Assembly (NCBI GenBank): GCA_021845945.1
Contig: JAJZRD010000172.1
Span: 1-8,220, forward strand
DNA from: Chloroflexota bacterium
GTDB lineage: Bacteria; Chloroflexota; UBA6077
Direction of reading: 5' to 3'
Length of the DNA: 8,220 nt
Under the pieces are notes generated by a model. That model did no database searches. It saw only the letters and a list, made by a program, of their open reading frames with translations, and had not been told where the DNA came from. Numbering within the stretch: position 1 is the stretch's first letter; the number at the start of each line of letters is the position of its first letter. Both the position numbers and the translations under genes were made by a program. Positions 1,131 to 8,084 of the stretch are shown here, piece by piece.

Positions 1131-1649
1131 CTACAGCAGCAGCTGCACCCTCAGCACCTTGTCGCCCCTGGTGACCACCAGTGACAGGCGCGACCCCGCC
1201 GAGAGCCCCGCCAGCAGCTTCTCGAGATCCGAGGCATTGGCAACCGGCCGGAGGTTGGCTTCGGTGATGATGTCGCCCTGGCGCAACCCCGCTCGCTCCG
1301 CAGGCGAGGAGGGAGCCACCCTGCCGACGAAGGCCCCGAAGATCGGAATGGCACCCGCCTTAATCGCCATTCGGCTGGCATCGGCGATGCTGAGCCCGAG
1401 GGAGGGCCTCTTCTGGGCCGCCTGGGCGATCATCGTCTCCAATCGCCGGGGATCGAACCCTACCACCACCCGATCGTCGACGGTGGTCACCGGGACCCCC
1501 TGCTGCCCAGACTTACGCACCATCTCGGCCGCCGCCACCGGGTCGCGCGTTACGTCGACCTCTTTGTACTGTACGCCCATCTGCGAAAGGAACTCTTTCG
1601 TCCTGGCGCACCAGGGTCAGGTGGGCGTGGTATATACGGTTACGTTCAT
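1131..1649 (-). CDS. Selenocysteine-containing glutaredoxin-PDZ protein (172 aa, in-frame UGA = Sec11)
   Basis: From ATG at 1649 the frame reads MNVTVYTTPT-UGA-PWC and continues open to 1131. The UGA (1617-1619) stands exactly where glutaredoxins have the first Cys of the redox motif, giving UPWC (Sec11, Cys14). Residues 1-78 form a glutaredoxin-like fold: strand NVTVYTT, helix TKEFLSQ, cis-proline GVPV (Pro53), then VVVGFD. Residues 85-172 are a PDZ domain of the HtrA type (APSSPAERAGLRQGDIIT). The start is strong: GAGGTGA lies four bases before the ATG. Starting at the later Met (1580) would lose the whole active site. A SECIS-like hairpin lies at 1584-1600. The likely role is thiol-disulfide reduction in the cytoplasm, as no signal peptide or membrane segment is seen. 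The PDZ may bind a partner peptide. The alternative, a nonsense mutation in a Cys protein, is less likely because the rest of the frame is intact and TGA is precisely at the catalytic position. The Sec machinery is not in this window. Confidence 0.8.
1584..1615 (-). promoter_or_regulatory. Bacterial SECIS-like element
   Basis: On the minus strand, CGAAAG (1600-1595) and CTTTCG (1589-1584) pair perfectly around the five-base loop AGTTC, which begins 22 bases after the UGA. In known bacterial SECIS elements the apical loop lies roughly 16-37 bases after the UGA and has a G among its first two bases; here the second loop base is G. A second short hairpin, CCTGG-TGCG-CCAGG, lies between (1615-1602). 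Fit was judged by eye, not by folding software. Confidence 0.6.
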
Positions 1650-1928: not shown

Positions 1929-3068
1929 GTGGCGGTGGCAAAGAGGGGAAAGACCTTATCGCTTCTGGCGGGGGCAGCGCTGGCGCTGCTGTCGATGCTG
2001 CTGATGCCGGCGCCGGTCCGGGCCGATCCTCCCCCCACGGATGGCTGGACCTCGGACCCGGCCTTCACCATAACCCTGCTGGGCCGAGACGGTCCCAATA
2101 ACACCGACCACTACCTCGTGACCCTGAGCTGGGGTGGCACCTTCTTCGGCGTCGCCTCAGAGTCCATGCCCCTGGTACCCGCCGACCAGGCCGTGAACAT
2201 CGTCCTGGATGGCTACAAGCGCACCTTCCCGGGCCGCCCTCCCGAGGACATTCAGCCGGACGATAGCTTCGATTTCTTCGTGCCGGCGGGGACGCTGGTC
2301 GCTACGCAGTGGCGGATACTGGGGAACGTCACCCAGTATCGATCGCTCCAGGGCGACACCCTGACGACCTACACCGACCCGAAGAGCTCCCTCCTGTATC
2401 GGCTGGTGCGGGGCAACAACCCCAACAAGGCCGAAATCAAGATCAACCAGATGGCCGATCTCACACCCGACAGGTTGGCCCAGGCCATCTACGGCCAGGG
2501 CGACCCCAACTTCAAGCCGGACTTCCTCCAGCTGACCCGTGCCAAGGGTTTGATCCAGGCCAACGCCGATACGGCCACGATCGACCTGACCAAGGAGCAC
2601 CTGGACGATCTGCAGGAGTTGAAGGGCAGCGCCCAGTCCGGGGGCAAGACCGACGACGGGATGGACGTCTACTGGTTCGGCGCCGGCGAGCAGGCCCAAC
2701 CCCTCTTCCGGATCGACGACGCCGTCGGCGACCAGACGGATCTCAGCGGCATGCCCTCCCTGATCCGGGTTTACTACTACAAGGACGGGACCGTTCGGAC
2801 GTACCAGCGGGCCAGCGACACGGTGTTGCTGAGCGGCCGGCAGCCTCAGAACGATGCCTGGGCCAAGGTGTACCAGGATTACAAGAAGGTCGATCCGGCG
2901 CCGGCCCGATGGGAGATCGGGCAGCCTGAGCAGGACGACCAGGCCCAGGAGCTGAACAAGCTGGGGATCGCGGTGCTTCGCTTCCAGCCGAAGCCGCAGC
3001 CGCAGGGGAACTTCTTCACTCAACTGCTGGACATGCTGATGGGGCTGATGAAGCGGAAGGAGCAATAG
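1929..3068 (+). CDS. Secreted protein of unknown function (379 aa)
   Basis: The N-terminus is a Sec-type signal peptide: VAKRGKT, a hydrophobic core LSLLAGAALALLSMLLM, then PAPVRA before DPPP, a good signal peptidase I site. There is no lipobox Cys. I recognise no domain in the mature part. It is hydrophilic and Gln/Asp-rich, with aromatic-rich beta-like segments (YLVTLSWGGTFFGVA; SLIRVYYYKDGTVRTYQRAS) and an acidic, Pro-rich linker. It ends in FFTQLLDMLMGLMKRKEQ, a short amphipathic helix followed by basic residues. Start choice: GTG at 1929 is possible, but AGGA at 1924-1927 is correctly spaced for GTG at 1935, which would shorten the protein by two residues. It is probably transcribed alone. 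The upstream neighbour, the selenoprotein gene, is divergent and could share control. No Cys or catalytic motif is evident, so a structural or binding role outside the membrane is a guess. Confidence 0.75.
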   Translation: MAVAKRGKTLSLLAGAALALLSMLLMPAPVRADPPPTDGWTSDPAFTITLLGRDGPNNTDHYLVTLSWGGTFFGVASESMPLVPADQAVNIVLDGYKRTFPGRPPEDIQPDDSFDFFVPAGTLVATQWRILGNVTQYRSLQGDTLTTYTDPKSSLLYRLVRGNNPNKAEIKINQMADLTPDRLAQAIYGQGDPNFKPDFLQLTRAKGLIQANADTATIDLTKEHLDDLQELKGSAQSGGKTDDGMDVYWFGAGEQAQPLFRIDDAVGDQTDLSGMPSLIRVYYYKDGTVRTYQRASDTVLLSGRQPQNDAWAKVYQDYKKVDPAPARWEIGQPEQDDQAQELNKLGIAVLRFQPKPQPQGNFFTQLLDMLMGLMKRKEQ

Positions 3069-3078
3069 CCTCTCCAAC

Positions 3079-3137
3079 GGCCCGCTCTACCGCCGGGATC
3101 GCCCAATCTCCAGACATCTGCTGCGGTAGGGCCTTTT
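3079..3137 (+). terminator. Possible terminator after the secreted protein gene
   Basis: CTACCG (3087-3092) pairs with CGGTAG (3124-3129). The stem extends by GGCC on each side after a four-base bulge, and is followed by TTTT (3134-3137). The loop of about 31 bases is long for an intrinsic terminator. The distal arm is shared with the repeat that follows, so the two structures would compete. Confidence 0.3.
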
Positions 3138-3285
3138 CAAAGCCGGCGCAACTGTCATGCTGAGCAAAGCGAAGCATCTCCCGGAGCTGAGAGTCGAGAC
3201 CCTTCGCCACTCTGAAAACAGCCATTTCATTCCTGGTGGTGTCCGCCAGGACATGAACGCTCCGCTCAGGGTGACAAAAGGCCCT
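3128..3285. repeat. MITE-like inverted repeat of the TGTCATGCTGAGC type
   Basis: The outer arms AGGGCCTTTT (3128-3137) and AAAAGGCCCT (3276-3285) are perfect inverted repeats. Inside them, TGTCATGCTGAGC (3153-3165) faces GCTCAGGGTGACA (3264-3276), 11 of 13 complementary. The inner text, AAGCGAAGCATCTC then GAGACCCTTCGC, has the pattern of dispersed hairpin repeats I know from Chloroflexota genomes. Its translation gives spurious peptides such as REMLRFAQHD. The right half carries about 50 extra bases (3208-3258) relative to a simple hairpin. Confidence 0.6.
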
Positions 3286-3301
3286 GCTGCGGCGGTGAGG
3301 G

Positions 3302-3400
3302 GTAGAGTAGGAGACTGGCGCGGTGGCTCTTTGGTCCGGCGCTGTCCACGCAGTAATTGCAGGCGCTGCTGCCCGAGACCTGGCCCCGTTTCCAGCCTCC
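3302..3400 (-). ncRNA. Group II intron domain VI (proposed, extended)
   Basis: On the minus strand, GGAGGCTGG (3400-3392) pairs over nine positions (one G-U) with CCAGTCTCC (3318-3310). The latter is followed by TACTCTAC at the 3' end, where the branch-point A is expected. The enclosed loop (3319-3391) is 73 bases long, whereas domain VI usually closes with a short loop. The extra sequence contains CAGCGCC twice. Either this is a natural extension or the true 3' end lies elsewhere. Confidence 0.45.
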
Positions 3401-3407
3401 CCTCATC

Positions 3408-3441
3408 AAACCGGACATGCGGTTCTCTCGCATCCGGCTTT
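3408..3441 (-). ncRNA. Group II intron domain V (catalytic hairpin)
   Basis: The minus strand reads AAAGCCGGATGCG, a short loop, then CCGCATGTCCGGTTT. This is the canonical domain V layout: about 34 bases, the AGC catalytic triad near the 5' end, a distal stem GATGCG/CGCATG-like, a two-base bulge, and a closing stem CCGGA/TCCGG. It lies 11 bases downstream of the RT stop codon, as expected for an ORF in domain IV. Confidence 0.85.
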
Positions 3442-3451
3442 CCGAGATCCT

Positions 3452-4252
3452 TCACTGCGCCGCTATCGGTGCTGCCTTGTGCCACGACACGGTTCCAGAC
3501 AGTTGATACAAACCGAGCTTCTGGAAGAACTCCAAGCTATGGACCTCCCAGCGTCGCCCAGGTCGCCCCGCCTTCTTGCTCAGGAACAGCGCCAGCCTCT
3601 CGCGCACGTAGCTATCCACCTGCCCGAACTTGGCGGTGGAGTTCCCTACTCGGAAGTAGGCTCCCCAGCCTCGCAGCACGCGGTTCACTTCGTCCACTAT
3701 CGGCTGCACCGCCTCCGGCAGCCGATGCCGCGGCGCCGTGATCGCTTTGACGCGCTCTCGTACCGCTTTCATCGCTTTCTGGCTCGGCCACAGTTGCAGG
3801 TACCTCTTCCGACGGTACCGCCAGGACTCCACCTTGCGGCAGGCAAACCCCAGGAAGTCGATGCCTTCCCGCCCTTCCCCAAGGTTCACCACCCGGGTCT
3901 TGACGGGATGGAGCGTCAGCCCCAGGCCGGTGAGCACCTCGCCCACTCGCCTGAGGGCCTCCCGGGCATCGGGCTCCCTCCTGCACAGGATCACAAAATC
4001 GTCGGCAAATCGGATCAACTGGCCCAGATAGCGGCAGTGGTCCTCCCAGAACTTGTCCAGTTCGTTCAGCGCCACGTTCGCTAACATCGGGGAAATCACG
4101 CCTCCCTGAGGTACGCCCTGGTCGGTGGGCCTTATCGCCCCCTCTTCCAGCACGCCCGCTTCCAGTATCTGCCTCAGCAGTTTCAGCATCCGCCGGTCAC
4201 TGATCCGCCTCTCCACCAAGCCCATCAGCACTCCATGACCGATCCTGTCGAA
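3452..4252 (-). pseudogene. Group II intron RT/maturase, C-terminal half (separated by insertion)
   Basis: The frame from TTC at 4252 to the stop at 3452 gives 266 residues and continues the half at 7014-7540. It opens with FDRIGHGVLMGLVERRISDRR, listed here up to residue 21, and contains QGVPQGGVISPMLANV (RT4) and FADD (RT5, residues 257-260 of the rebuilt protein). RT6-7 are seen as LHPVKTRVV…DFLGF. The maturase X domain follows with LRGWGAYFRVGNST and a C-terminal GLYQLSGTVSWHKA. There is no HNH endonuclease. A GTG at 4261 could start translation, but the product would lack RT0-3 and the first catalytic Asp, so it should be inactive. There are no stops or frameshifts inside, which points to a recent insertion. 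Confidence 0.9.
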
Positions 4253-4277
4253 GGAACCCACTCCACACTACCCACTT
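4241..4277 (+). other. Left attachment junction (attL)
   Basis: Host RT sequence GATCCTGTCG (4241-4250) meets element sequence GGAACCCACTCCACAC (from 4253) at the core AA (4251-4252). Reading outward from the core, this element half-site resembles the one at the right end (GGATCCATCGACAT on the complement). Confidence 0.7.
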
Positions 4278-4752
4278 CGAGGACTATCCCAGCGAAGTCA
4301 CCGTTACCCGGCCCCACCATCCTCTCCAGGGCCAATCGGTGGCGGTGCTGAGTCGGACAGTCCGTGCCGGACAGCCCCAGGTGGTGGTCCAACTCCCGGA
4401 CGGCACCAGAGCAATGTGGCCACAGGCCTGGACCAGCCTCCAGCCAGCCGATGATGCGGGCCAGCCGACCTTCCTGACCGCTGAGCTGGCCCACCTCCTC
4501 TCCCTGCGCAAGTTGGTGGATGCCCTGCACCGACGCACTCCCGATACTATGGGCAACCACCCTACGGAGGACGCCCATGCGCAGCCAGCAGCAGCAGCCA
4601 CCACTCCCGGGTCTCGAACCCCTCGTCGCCGGCGAGCCTCCCGCTCCGCTCCTCTGGGAACGTCTCCCGGAGACGGATCGCCTGGCCGCCCTGCTCTTCC
4701 TAGCCAGGCTCATCAGCCGGATGCTTCATCCCGCAGGAGGCGATCACCATGA
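4255..4752 (+). pseudogene. DUF5372-like element protein, start codon separated by integration
   Basis: The frame reads HFEDYPSEVTVTRPHHPLQG then QPQVVVQLPDGTRAMWPQAW and AELAHLLSLRKLVDAL. From memory this resembles DUF5372 (VTHPFHPLHG…LP..W), a small protein of unknown function encoded beside transposon recombinases. In the integrated state no ATG, GTG or TTG exists in frame before GTG 4339, which lies past the conserved opening; the frame is open back to 4204 in host DNA without a start. The missing SD and ATG are at the other end of the element (6989-7002) and fuse in frame on circularisation, giving a 171-residue product. The last 65 codons are Pro/Arg/Ser-rich and overlap the next ORF, so they may be a run-on tail. 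The stop overlaps the recombinase start as ATGA (4749-4752). Confidence 0.6.
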
Positions 4753-4756
4753 CTGA
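4577..4756 (+). CDS. Small element ORF upstream of and overlapping the recombinase (59 aa)
   Basis: GGAGG (4566-4570) lies six bases before ATG 4577, an ideal ribosome binding site. The peptide has a Gln/Pro-rich head, then LLWERLPETDRLAALLFLAR and LISRML, an amphipathic helical stretch. It resembles small WxxLP-type proteins encoded just before recombinases or transposases in other elements (family not named with certainty). Its stop (4754-4756) overlaps the recombinase start by eight bases (ATGACTGA), so translation is probably coupled. A role as recombinase partner or directionality cofactor is only a guess. It overlaps the tail of the DUF5372-like frame in a different register, and its cleaner ribosome binding site and composition make this the better supported of the two in 4577-4750. 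Confidence 0.6.
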   Translation: MRSQQQQPPLPGLEPLVAGEPPAPLLWERLPETDRLAALLFLARLISRMLHPAGGDHHD

Positions 4757-6977
4757 TCAATCCAAGCTCTCGCCGCGGCACCTCAACCGACTGGCCTACG
4801 TCTACGTCCGCCAGTCGTCCCCTGCCAAGGTCCAAAACCACCGCGAGTCCACCGAACGCCAGTACGGCCTGGCCGAGCGGGTTATCGCCCTGGGCTGGCG
4901 GCCTGACGCCATCGTGACCATCGACGACGATCTCGGCCATTCCGCCTCCGGCTTGGAGGCGCGGGAGGGCTTCGCCCGCATGGCGGCCGCTGTCGCCCTC
5001 GGCCAAGTGGGCATCGTCGTCGGCCTGGAGGTCTCCCGCCTGGCCCGGAACAATGCCGCCTGGTACCGTCTCCTCGACCTCTGCCGTTACACCGACACCT
5101 TGATCGCCGACGCGGACGGGCTGTATGATCCTGGCGACTTCAACGACCGCCTGGTGCTGGGGCTCAAGGGCACGATGTCGGAAGCAGAACTCCGCCTCCT
5201 ACGCGCTCGGCTGATCGGCGGCATTCGCCACAAGGTCGCCAAGGGGAAGCTGCGCCGCCAGCCAGCCACGGGCTACGAGTACAGCCCCGACGGCAAGCTC
5301 CAGTTCACCCCCGATGAAGCCGTCCGCACCGCGATCAAGACCGTCTTCGACCGCTTCGGCGAACTGGGGTCCGCCCGGGGCGTGTGGACCTGGTTCCTGG
5401 ACCAGGGCCTGCTCCTCCCTCGGCGCCTCACCTCGGGGGCCGGCGTCCGCTGGGAACGGCCCAGCTACCACGCCATCCATGGCATCCTCACCAACCCCGT
5501 CTACGCCGGTGCCTACGTCTGGGGTCGCCACCAGGTCGCCCAGCGGGTGCTCCCGGATGGCACCATCCAGAGCCGCACCGTCAAGCGTCCCCAGGAGGAT
5601 TGGCACGTCGACTTGCAGGACCACCATCCGGCCTACGTCGATGCCCAGACCTTCCAGGCGATCCAGGTCCGCCTGCGGGCCAACTCTCCCGCCGAGCATG
5701 CTCGGACCGGCGGAGCCCCCCGGGAAGGCTCGGCGTTGCTCCAGGGGCTGGCCACCTGCGGCCACTGCGGCCGGCGCCTGCGCGTCCGCTACAACGGCGC
5801 CAACTCAACGCCCGGCTACACCTGCCACCGAGGCCAGCCGCTCCAGGGACGCCGCGAGCAATGCCTGGACATCGGCGGGCGCCAGCTGGAGCGACCCGTG
5901 GTCGACGCCTTCCTGGCAGCCCTCTCCCCCGCTCGGCTGGAGGCCACGCTCCTGGCCCTCCAGAGCCTCGCCTCCGACTTCGAGCAGTGGCTTCATCCCT
6001 GGAGGCTCGCGGTCGAACGCGCCCGGTATGAAGCGGAACGGTCCCAGCGCCAGTATCAGCAGGTGGAGCCGGAGAACCGCCTGGTGGCCCGCTCGCTGGA
6101 GGCAGCCTGGGAGACGGCTCTGCAGGAGCTTGCCACCGCCGAGGCTGAACTCGCCCGCCGCGAGCAGCAGCGGCCGCGCCCGCCTACCGCGGCCGAACTG
6201 GCCTCCTTGCGCACCCTGGGCGTGGACCTGGTGCGGGTCTGGTCAGCCCCTACCACCACCGACCGTGACCGCAAGGAACTGCTGCGCACCCTCCTCGACC
6301 GCGTCGTCGTTCGACTGGACCGCGGGACGGCCCCCGGCGACTCGCCTGAGCAGCAGCGCCCAGCGGTCTACGGCCATGCCCACCTCACCCTCGTCTGGCG
6401 TGGCGGGGAAGCCACCGAGCTGGAGGTCCCCCTGACGCGCTCCCATCCGGCCCCGGTTCGCACCCCGGAGGAAACCGTGGCCCTGGTGCGTCGCCTGGCC
6501 CAGCACTACTCCGACGCCACCATCGCCAGTATCCTCAACCGGCAAGGGCGCACCACCGCCACGGGACAACCCTTCACCGTATCCCGCGTCTCCTCCCTGC
6601 GCACCCACTGGAAGATCCCTGTCTACCAGGCGCTAGCAGAGGCACCTGCCACCGAGCTCTGCAATCTGCACGAGGCCGCGGTGCGCCTGGGAGTGGCCCA
6701 GTCCACGGTGTTGCGTTGGCTGGAGGAGGGCTACCTACCCGGCGTCCAGCTCACTCCAGGAGCGCCCTGGCAGATCCGCCTCACCGACGAGGTCCTGGCC
6801 AAGTTCGCACCGGAGCCCCCGCAGGGGTGGCTGCCCCTGGTCGACGCGGCGAAGGTGCTCGCTCTCCCCAGGCAGATCGTCATGAACAAGGTCAAGACCG
6901 GCGAGCTGCACGCTGTCCTTCTGACACGCGGGCGCCGCATCCAGATCCCACAGAGCTGTCCGCAGCTCTTCACGTGA
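4749..6977 (+). CDS. Large serine recombinase with C-terminal tandem HTH domains (742 aa)
   Basis: It catalyses site-specific strand exchange through a 5' phosphoserine. The N-terminal resolvase domain (about residues 12-165) shows YVRQS with nucleophile Ser23, ESTERQ (33-38), DDDLGHSASG, SRLARN with Arg97 and Arg100, and SEAELRLLRAR. A recombinase domain follows (about 170-260: TPDEAVRTAIKTVFDRF…ILTNPVYAGAYVWG). Next comes a zinc ribbon with Cys337, Cys340, Cys359 and Cys372, then an Arg/Glu/Gln-rich coiled coil (about 415-480) and a second basic region. Residues 637-680 (NLHEAAVRLGVAQSTVLRWL) and 694-738 (LPLVDAAKVLALPRQIVMNK) look like two excisionase/MerR-type helix-turn-helix units. AGGAGG (4735-4740) lies eight bases before the ATG. 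No catalytic residue is missing, so the enzyme should be active. It is the element's own integrase/excisionase, judging from the precise AA-core ends around it. Confidence 0.92.
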   Translation: MTDQSKLSPRHLNRLAYVYVRQSSPAKVQNHRESTERQYGLAERVIALGWRPDAIVTIDDDLGHSASGLEAREGFARMAAAVALGQVGIVVGLEVSRLARNNAAWYRLLDLCRYTDTLIADADGLYDPGDFNDRLVLGLKGTMSEAELRLLRARLIGGIRHKVAKGKLRRQPATGYEYSPDGKLQFTPDEAVRTAIKTVFDRFGELGSARGVWTWFLDQGLLLPRRLTSGAGVRWERPSYHAIHGILTNPVYAGAYVWGRHQVAQRVLPDGTIQSRTVKRPQEDWHVDLQDHHPAYVDAQTFQAIQVRLRANSPAEHARTGGAPREGSALLQGLATCGHCGRRLRVRYNGANSTPGYTCHRGQPLQGRREQCLDIGGRQLERPVVDAFLAALSPARLEATLLALQSLASDFEQWLHPWRLAVERARYEAERSQRQYQQVEPENRLVARSLEAAWETALQELATAEAELARREQQRPRPPTAAELASLRTLGVDLVRVWSAPTTTDRDRKELLRTLLDRVVVRLDRGTAPGDSPEQQRPAVYGHAHLTLVWRGGEATELEVPLTRSHPAPVRTPEETVALVRRLAQHYSDATIASILNRQGRTTATGQPFTVSRVSSLRTHWKIPVYQALAEAPATELCNLHEAAVRLGVAQSTVLRWLEEGYLPGVQLTPGAPWQIRLTDEVLAKFAPEPPQGWLPLVDAAKVLALPRQIVMNKVKTGELHAVLLTRGRRIQIPQSCPQLFT

Positions 6978-6988
6978 CCAAATCAGAC

Positions 6989-7025
6989 AAGGAGGCAGTA
7001 TGTCGATGGATCCAAGAACGCCTCT
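6989..7025 (+). promoter_or_regulatory. Right attachment junction (attR) carrying RBS and start codon of the split gene
   Basis: AAGGAGG (6989-6995) lies four bases before ATG (7000-7002), with a second in-frame ATG at 7006. The codons ATG TCG ATG GAT CCA then run into the core AA (7014-7015) and on into host sequence GAACGCC. In the integrated state this start points plus-strand translation into the antisense of the RT gene. Joined to the left end at the AA core, it continues as AGG AAC CCA CTC in the frame of the DUF5372-like ORF. It lies only 11 bases after the recombinase stop. Confidence 0.7.
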
Positions 7026-7540
7026 ATGTCCGCGTCCACCACCCAACTCCCACCTCGGTTCACTCCGACACGTAGCTGCTCCATCGCCTGGTGCGCGCTC
7101 CGCTTCGGCCTGAACCCGTGGGAACTGTCCCGGAAATCGGCCTCAAAGACCGGCTCCAGCACCACCTTCGCGGCAGCCTGTACCACCCGGTCCCGTATGG
7201 CCGGGATCCCTAACGGCCTCTGGCGTCCGTCTGCCTTAGGGATGTACACCCGACGCACTGGCTGTGGCCGGTATCGTCCCTCCCGCAGTTCCTCCCCCAG
7301 TTTCGCCAGGAACCCTTCGACCCCTCCCTGCTCAATCGTCTCGATGGTCGCGCCATCAATGCCCGCTGCCCCAGCGTTGGCTTTCACTTCCCCCCACGCC
7401 CTCTCCAAGATGTCCTCTCGGTACACCTTGTCGTACAGCGCATGGAACCGCCGCGTCGCACTCGCCTTCGCGGCTCGATACAGTGCCCTCTGGAGTTCTC
7501 GTGCAGCGTCTACGGTGTCGTTAGCCACTTGGGCATTCAC
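7014..7540 (-). pseudogene. Group II intron RT/maturase, N-terminal half (separated by insertion)
   Basis: The frame starts at GTG 7540, preceded by AAGGG four bases upstream, and runs 175 residues to the insertion point. It then picks up ten foreign residues ([10 protein letters not shown]) and stops at 6983. Visible motifs are RT0-1 ([12 protein letters not shown]), RT2 ([24 protein letters not shown] in outline, 20-residue core [20 protein letters not shown]), RT2a ([14 protein letters not shown]) and RT3 ([11 protein letters not shown], with the catalytic Asp at 169 or 171). Joined to the other half at the AA/TT crossover, codons read GCG TTC TTC GAC AGG, restoring AFFDR and a 441-residue protein. 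This is the length expected for an RT plus maturase domain without endonuclease. Confidence 0.9.
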
Positions 7541-8084
7541 CAGCCCTTACCCCCTTTGGACACACGGACCAAGTGCGGCCCCTTCCCTCCGCCCAGGTTA
7601 TGCTGCCTCGGCATCTTCAGTACTATGGGCCGCTCCGACTCCCGCTCCGCTCTCCCCCACTTCACGCTCATCGCGCTTATAGGGTTCGTCGCTCCCAGTC
7701 CACCCTCGGGTTGGCACCCTGAGGGTCTCACTGCTGGGGCGGAGACGGGCCTCTCCTGTTCCCACGATGGCTGTCCCGCCGTTCCACGCCCCCTACGCCG
7801 CAGGGTTCCTCGGTGCTGCACTCCAAGCTCTTCACACCTTCCGTGGCCTTCGCCCACACGCACCAGGCTCGGCTCCCTGTTGTTCCCCTCTCGGGGCCTT
7901 ATTCTCGACGCGGCAGGCTTCGCTTCATGCTGCGGACCGGCGGTTTGCACTCTCCTTTCGAGAGCTTGACCCCGCGCTTCGACGCCCGGGTCTCCCCATA
8001 CGTCGGCGGGCTACTACGAAGGGTCTTGGCACCTCCTTCGACCGGACTTCCACCGGCAAGTCATCGTGAACTTCCAGGACGCAC
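7541..8084 (-). ncRNA. Group II intron 5' ribozyme part (domains I-III)
   Basis: These 544 bases lie between the intron 5' end and the RT start. On the minus strand they begin GTGCGTCCTGGAAGTTCAC and are rich in short GC hairpins. Examples are CCGG-TGGAAGT-CCGG near the 5' end, CTCTC-GAAAG-GAGAG (7964-7950), and CCCC-GAGA-GGGG (7896-7885), whose GAGA loop is of the GNRA type used for tertiary docking. No protein is supported here; the open frames are by-products of GC content. I could not assign exon-binding sites. Confidence 0.7.

Follow-up and report, generated by a model that had tools for sequence, protein, structure and literature searches.

A serine-recombinase element whose attachment site separates a DUF5372 gene from its start codon, with the whole gene predicted on the circle

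We analyzed an 8,220-nt stretch of a Chloroflexota genome (contig JAJZRD010000172.1 of assembly GCA_021845945.1; hereafter the window), in which a serine-recombinase element of 2763 bp, at 4251-7013, lies antisense within the reverse transcriptase (RT) gene of a group II intron. When 4251-7013 is deleted and the flanks are joined at the dinucleotide AA, an open RT open reading frame (ORF) results and the RT motif is rebuilt, bearing out the AA core that an earlier note on this DNA, made from the sequence alone, had derived by rebuilding the RT gene. That note placed the element at 4251-7015; its left end stands, whereas the right end has to be moved to 7013, the second AA being assigned to the target. 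The element, its attachment site (attP) and the genes concerned are as follows.

4251..7013, plus strand: the element, from core dinucleotide to core dinucleotide; joining at AA restores the target ORF and leaves the circle ORF open
4251..4252, no strand: left copy of the crossover core AA (attL)
7014..7015, no strand: right copy of the crossover core AA (attR)
7014..7540, minus strand: group II intron RT gene, 5' portion of the split frame, RVT_1 profile positions 1-78
3452..4250, minus strand: same RT gene, 3' portion of the split frame, which includes the maturase domain, RVT_1 profile positions 79-204 and GIIM
4253..4752, plus strand: ORF1 body, a headless DUF5372/Y4bD-like frame whose first ATG/GTG/TTG is the GTG at 4339
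6989..7013, plus strand: ORF1 head, with AAGGAGG at 6989-6995, ATG at 7000 and 7006, and the codons up to the core
4253..4276, plus strand: left arm of attP, 24 nt, also coding the ORF1 leader; CACACTACCC at 4264-4273; arm consensus over 32 loci
6990..7013, plus strand: right arm of attP, overlapping the ORF1 head
4577..4756, plus strand: ORF2, 59 aa from the chosen ATG (longest form from 4520), overlapping ORF1 and the recombinase start
4749..6977, plus strand: large serine recombinase, 742 aa, with Resolvase, Recombinase and zinc ribbon domains and a C-terminal excisionase-like HTH_17

ORF1 is split by the attachment site exactly as the earlier note had observed. The left-end frame, which matches DUF5372 (PF17342) at 31.7 bits, above the curated cut-off of 25, has no ATG, GTG or TTG ahead of the GTG at 4339, and this first in-frame start of the integrated form already lies within the domain. 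At the right end lie the orphan AAGGAGG and its two ATGs. Joining the element ends at the AA core fuses the two parts without a stop or frameshift (ATG TCG ATG GAT CCA A/GG AAC CCA..., the slash marking the join), giving a 171-codon ORF that runs into DUF5372.

We then looked for relatives of the element. Initial searches with the window's own proteins gave no matches. Searching with the recombinase by tblastn returned 526 plasmid records, all below 60% identity. In a collection that represents each of 84,980 species by one genome, a profile built from seven recombinases matched at least 578 relatives, the best 80 of which were kept. The loci examined were the window and L001-L090, and then L123-L140 from plasmids; many were unusable because they ran into a contig end, lacked a DUF5372 match, had RT sequence on a single side or had flanks that could not be assigned to a type. 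For insertions in RT genes, the junction was set by the target: the RT frame had to stay open through the join, with an FFD-type motif and the core AA in place. Removing one misfiled row (L085, an IstB insertion) from the 34 obtained left 33 RT-class loci including the window, which are not independent because they contain near copies (L020/L067/L073, L037/L044, L001/L009 and L002/L005).

An in-frame start codon is present in the right end of 32 of these 33 loci (31 of the 32 relatives), so that the pairing of a headless ORF with a fusing start at the other end, which the earlier note had proposed to seek in homologues, is nearly universal in this class. The same note had named three findings that would speak against it. 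A DUF5372 gene starting inside the left end was seen in none of the 33, no ATG, GTG or TTG lying between core and domain; the first ten codons past the core hold no start in 320 codons (32 loci). An out-of-frame junction was seen, among junctions set by the target, only in the decayed L064, with L084 ambiguous; the DUF frame stands in one phase relative to the core in 32/34 rows, the exceptions being L064 and the misfiled L085. As to a junction at a different dinucleotide, some uninterrupted natural RT copies align without gaps through a single AA (L016 versus L109 over 299 bp; L019 versus L104 over 300 bp), indicating a short crossover core without a larger target duplication; the remaining empty-copy alignments show 2 to 14 gaps. 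In five genomes, chosen as element carriers, RT matches often stop or start near profile position 79, at the FFD motif. Two side observations concern element copies. In G001, the genome of L020, RT genes are split at the same profile position on contigs C3, C7 and C8, with identical scores and similar gaps of ~2.7 kb, as if intron and element were copied together, and at L007 the first element is followed, ~200 bp to its right, by a related one (2903-5006) that has a headless DUF5372 frame of its own.

The position of the start codon was next considered in relation to attP. The two ends of the element (right, GGG.AGTATG...GATCC; left, the reverse complement of GGAAAC...CACTACCC) are the arms of one imperfect inverted repeat, in which the leader motif CACACTACCC and the GGGxAGTATG motif mirror each other, and the ORF1 ATG is therefore presumed to sit in a recombinase half-site. 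Conservation of attP alone could fix one ATG at -14. Wherever -14 holds no start, an in-frame replacement is found at -11 or -8 (an ATG at -11 in ten Burkholderiales/Pseudomonas loci, in L012 and in L014). The nearest start lies 8, 11 or 14 nt ahead of the core, always 2 modulo 3, unlike the distance from recombinase stop to core, which spreads over all three phases. Of the 32 fusing loci, 12 and 0 have a start codon 5-17 nt ahead of the core in the two remaining phases; these loci were selected for an in-frame start, and the informative figure is 32/33. Downstream, the core lies 68, 71, 80 or 86 nt from the HP motif, so that changes in leader length past the arm preserve the frame, L064 excepted; a value of 35 in five rows reflects an earlier HH motif caught by the search. 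Once the ends are joined, the gap between recombinase stop and ORF1 start is -4 to 22 nt in the 32 loci, and in four of them the two codons overlap (ATGA/GTGA).

Fusions recur with other cores in IS21 istA/istB, IS66 tnpB/tnpC and IS3-like genes of insertion sequences (IS), several of these target names being ones that we presume from motifs. Both flanks matched IS21 references in 8 of the 23 loci tried, and seven of the eight fuse in frame (five in IstB, two IstA-like). Another 14 joins were set manually in knowledge of the desired frame and are hence weaker; all fuse, and 11 rebuild a recognizable target (RT, IstB, IstA, IS66 TnpB and TnpC, or IS3-like), those at L080, L082 and L087 rebuilding none, with a core of a single base at L087. 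Since element length modulo 3 alone sets the phase, all joins preserving the target frame agree on it, and a reference-scored check of nine loci gave phase 0 in eight; at L127, for which a proper reference is lacking, the top join is in another phase. IS66 and IS21 genes are annotated next to L129, L134, L135 and L138, and two insertions (L135 and L138) are in sense orientation. Three copies in one Paracoccaceae genome (L068-L070), whose ends were fixed by mutual comparison, give a circle that opens the DUF frame from an ATG. Public annotation places internal starts in the DUF5372 genes of L128 (TTG at 2689) and L132 (GTG at 2309). L128 fuses in frame at its RT-homology junction (score 172, next 158), and its annotated TTG start is probably an artefact of the split gene. 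One Mesorhizobium element was found in five loci (L003, L037, L044 and L123/L124) at four distinct sites with the same fusion: three in RT genes and one, common to the plasmids of L123 and L124, in a transposase gene that we take from its motif to be IS1380-like. The insertion point in L123/L124 is a Phe-Asp codon pair. Because this element occupies both RT genes and a transposase gene at Phe-Asp, it may recognize a short DNA motif rather than a gene.

To ask what is encoded, we compared ORF1 sequences and examined the predicted products. The ratio of nonsynonymous to synonymous substitution (dN/dS) over the first 105 codons of ORF1 was 0.13-0.36 in the 12 informative of 13 pairs, which share loci, indicating that ORF1 is under purifying selection. 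Its predicted structure is a small SH3/Tudor/KOW-like barrel plus a helix (mean predicted local distance difference test score 78.7, predicted template modeling score 0.48), with weak fold matches. ORF2 had no family match at E 1 in Pfam and NCBIfam, and one weak match in PHROGs (E 0.16). The recombinase has the Resolvase, Recombinase and zinc ribbon set of large serine recombinases and, because of the excisionase-like helix-turn-helix domains at its C-terminus, may carry its own directionality control. Membership of two known types was rejected: the IS607-type model NF033518 scored 12.7 bits against a cut-off of 110, through the C-terminal helix-turn-helix only, and the XisF-type equivalog 78 bits against 375.

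Around the element-bearing ORF, the RNA domains of the intron persist (window 3302-8059, minus strand), and elsewhere in the window a further gene drew attention.

7925..8059, minus strand: group II intron domains I-IV motif, upstream of RT (Rfam RF02003)
3302..3442, minus strand: group II intron 3' catalytic domain (Rfam RF00029)
1131..1649, minus strand: gene for a Glutaredoxin-PDZ protein whose redox motif contains an in-frame TGA (TTPT-TGA-PWC)

As these RNA domains still surround the interrupted intron ORF, the element could travel as a passenger if splicing or mobility of the intron were assisted in trans. The Glutaredoxin-PDZ gene is a selenoprotein candidate, with a plain stop as the alternative; the Glutaredoxin match reaches E 1e-19 with TGA read as a residue, and the RNA around the TGA folds with a z-score of -2.2.

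The split anatomy, its in-frame conservation, the purifying selection on ORF1 and the targets are all established at the level of sequence. They support the interpretation given in the earlier note, that the gene is complete on the circle only, and we think it likely that an attP which splits off the start codon makes ORF1 a circle-only gene, its product being predicted from the circle. In the mechanism we propose, attP would house the ribosome-binding site and start codon of the first element gene, ORF1 (DUF5372), and the circle would read head to tail from the recombinase across attP into ORF1, ORF2 and the recombinase again. Crossover within the first ORF1 codons would send the start to the right end and the body to the left end. 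Because start and body are parted in this way, the integrated copy would be unable to make the full ORF1 protein, and excision would rebuild the gene. We infer that the circle forms, that its ORF1 is translated, perhaps in coupling with the recombinase, and that the product acts as a circle-phase factor lost on integration.

Several observations weigh against this proposal. No natural circle or tandem junction was found in any collection searched. Joined attP gave half matches only in plasmids, and patterns for it, which fit the RT-class attP only, occurred in none of 118 fetched loci or 20 genomes or records; a pattern search of IMG/VR gave four hits, all judged to be chance. Joined ORF1 was absent from phages, and its two matches from residue 1 in plasmids (31 records) proved to be copies integrated in a transposase gene. 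None of 36 related predicted proteins, from a search that scored the 7996 candidates sharing most words, has the canonical joined N-terminus; the nearest, P0013, has Q rather than P at the core, like integrated copies. Among the loci, L064, whose recombinase is in five pieces, is the sole RT-class member without a fusion, and L019 fuses, yet its ORF1 is broken after 58 codons. The top join of L084 has no start, a lower-ranked one being in frame; L138 has a stop in all three joins shown; and in L068-L070 an out-of-frame ATG is better spaced from the ribosome site than the DUF-frame ATG, which lies further on. Selection on leader codons 8-20 is weak (pooled pN 0.11 and pS 0.24 over the 13 pairs): dN exceeds dS in three pairs, and a fourth has two nonsynonymous changes and no synonymous one. 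Moreover, the leader doubles as attP sequence, so its conservation as DNA need not be coding.

The same anatomy might have arisen from compactness alone, attP being forced into the sole short gap on the circle and the beheading being a tolerated by-product without regulatory value, with ORF1 simply needed on the circle. This explanation is a serious one, if somewhat short of probable. Judged by the usual size of a serine-integrase site, the gap of -4 to 22 nt between recombinase stop and ORF1 start is too short to hold one, and both ends form arms of an inverted repeat that includes the ATG. It sits less well with a frame kept across several targets and cores, though any lineage could gain a leader start, and with the absence of starts from codon positions 1-10 after the core. 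It differs from the circle-only reading in purpose, not in anatomy, and on anatomy the two are not mutually exclusive. A different possibility is that ORF1 is dead and the join a by-product of the attP sequence, whose motifs do mirror each other as arms; the low dN/dS, the in-frame replacement starts at -11 and -8 and the leader length changes that keep the frame (except in L064) make this the least credible account.

Two further explanations would have ORF1 expressed from the integrated copy. A shorter protein could be made from a start within the domain, as annotators chose for L128 and L132, and 31 of 32 loci have such a start within 110 codons; the first one falls anywhere between codons 15 and 102 past the core and is not conserved, and most would delete part of the predicted barrel, so that we regard this as improbable. 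Alternatively, the target gene could lend its own start codon, a trap for host starts that the earlier note had also suggested. Here the annotated relative P0002 does begin at such a codon, the TTG of L067 and L073, and a host in-frame start before any stop exists in 6/34 rows; the other 28 have none, and the idea, which is not supported, appears very improbable.

Turning to known systems, circle-junction promoters exist in IS minicircles and serine-recombinase transposons. There, as here, closing the circle supplies an expression signal missing from the linear form; in those systems it is a promoter that is completed, whereas here it is the coding sequence itself. Helper-embedded satellites, which insert in prophage late genes, reportedly use an integrase of another type. 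They resemble the present family in that one integrase clade repeatedly targets genes of mobile elements, but they are phage satellites, and the abstract describing them mentions no split element gene (PMC10111431). The gin element in gerE of Bacillus cereus, as described in PMC5595907, likewise involves site-specific recombinases and an interrupted gene restored on excision; the restored gene belongs to the host, whereas in the present case the circle completes a gene of the element and the target is restored as well. The closest precedent is the integration-dependent immunity of mycobacteriophage BPs, in which, according to PMC4557955, attP lies inside the repressor gene and integration strips a C-terminal degradation tag, leaving a stable repressor. 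The likeness, judged from DNA alone in our case, is an attP within an element ORF whose product is altered by integration; BPs loses the C-terminus of its repressor, whereas here the start codon, and with it the N-terminus, is lost from an unrelated gene, DUF5372. ORF1 relatives bear the names Y4bD/Y4pK in sequence records, and full-text literature searches on Y4bD/Y4pK and DUF5372 gave no relevant paper. Neither did full-text searches, with most subscription papers outside their coverage, give an account of ORF1, its targets or the arrangement. The main text of a systematic serine-recombinase survey contains neither DUF5372 nor reverse transcriptase (PMC10083194), and passages of PMC4227781 and PMC4853749 have no bearing on the split-gene question.

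As to what a circle-only ORF1 would do, the likeliest role, put at below even odds, is to promote re-integration or set its timing, or else to select for recombination of attP x attB. More broadly, and just short of what we would call probable, these elements may form a superfamily that parasitizes catalytic genes of other mobile elements, with the start-splitting attP as a sensor of state and ORF1 as a self-limiting, integration-only factor in an endless head-to-tail circle operon. If the circle-only reading is true, closing the circle writes a gene and integration erases it. Expression of an element gene would then depend on DNA topology through sequence alone, without a repressor or junction promoter, and the question of how such tiny elements keep excision apart from integration would have a simple answer open to testing. 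The reading would also account for annotations in which DUF5372 genes are absent or begin at the wrong codon, and it suggests that a large set of elements lands in motifs conserved among transposition genes and the RTs of group II introns.

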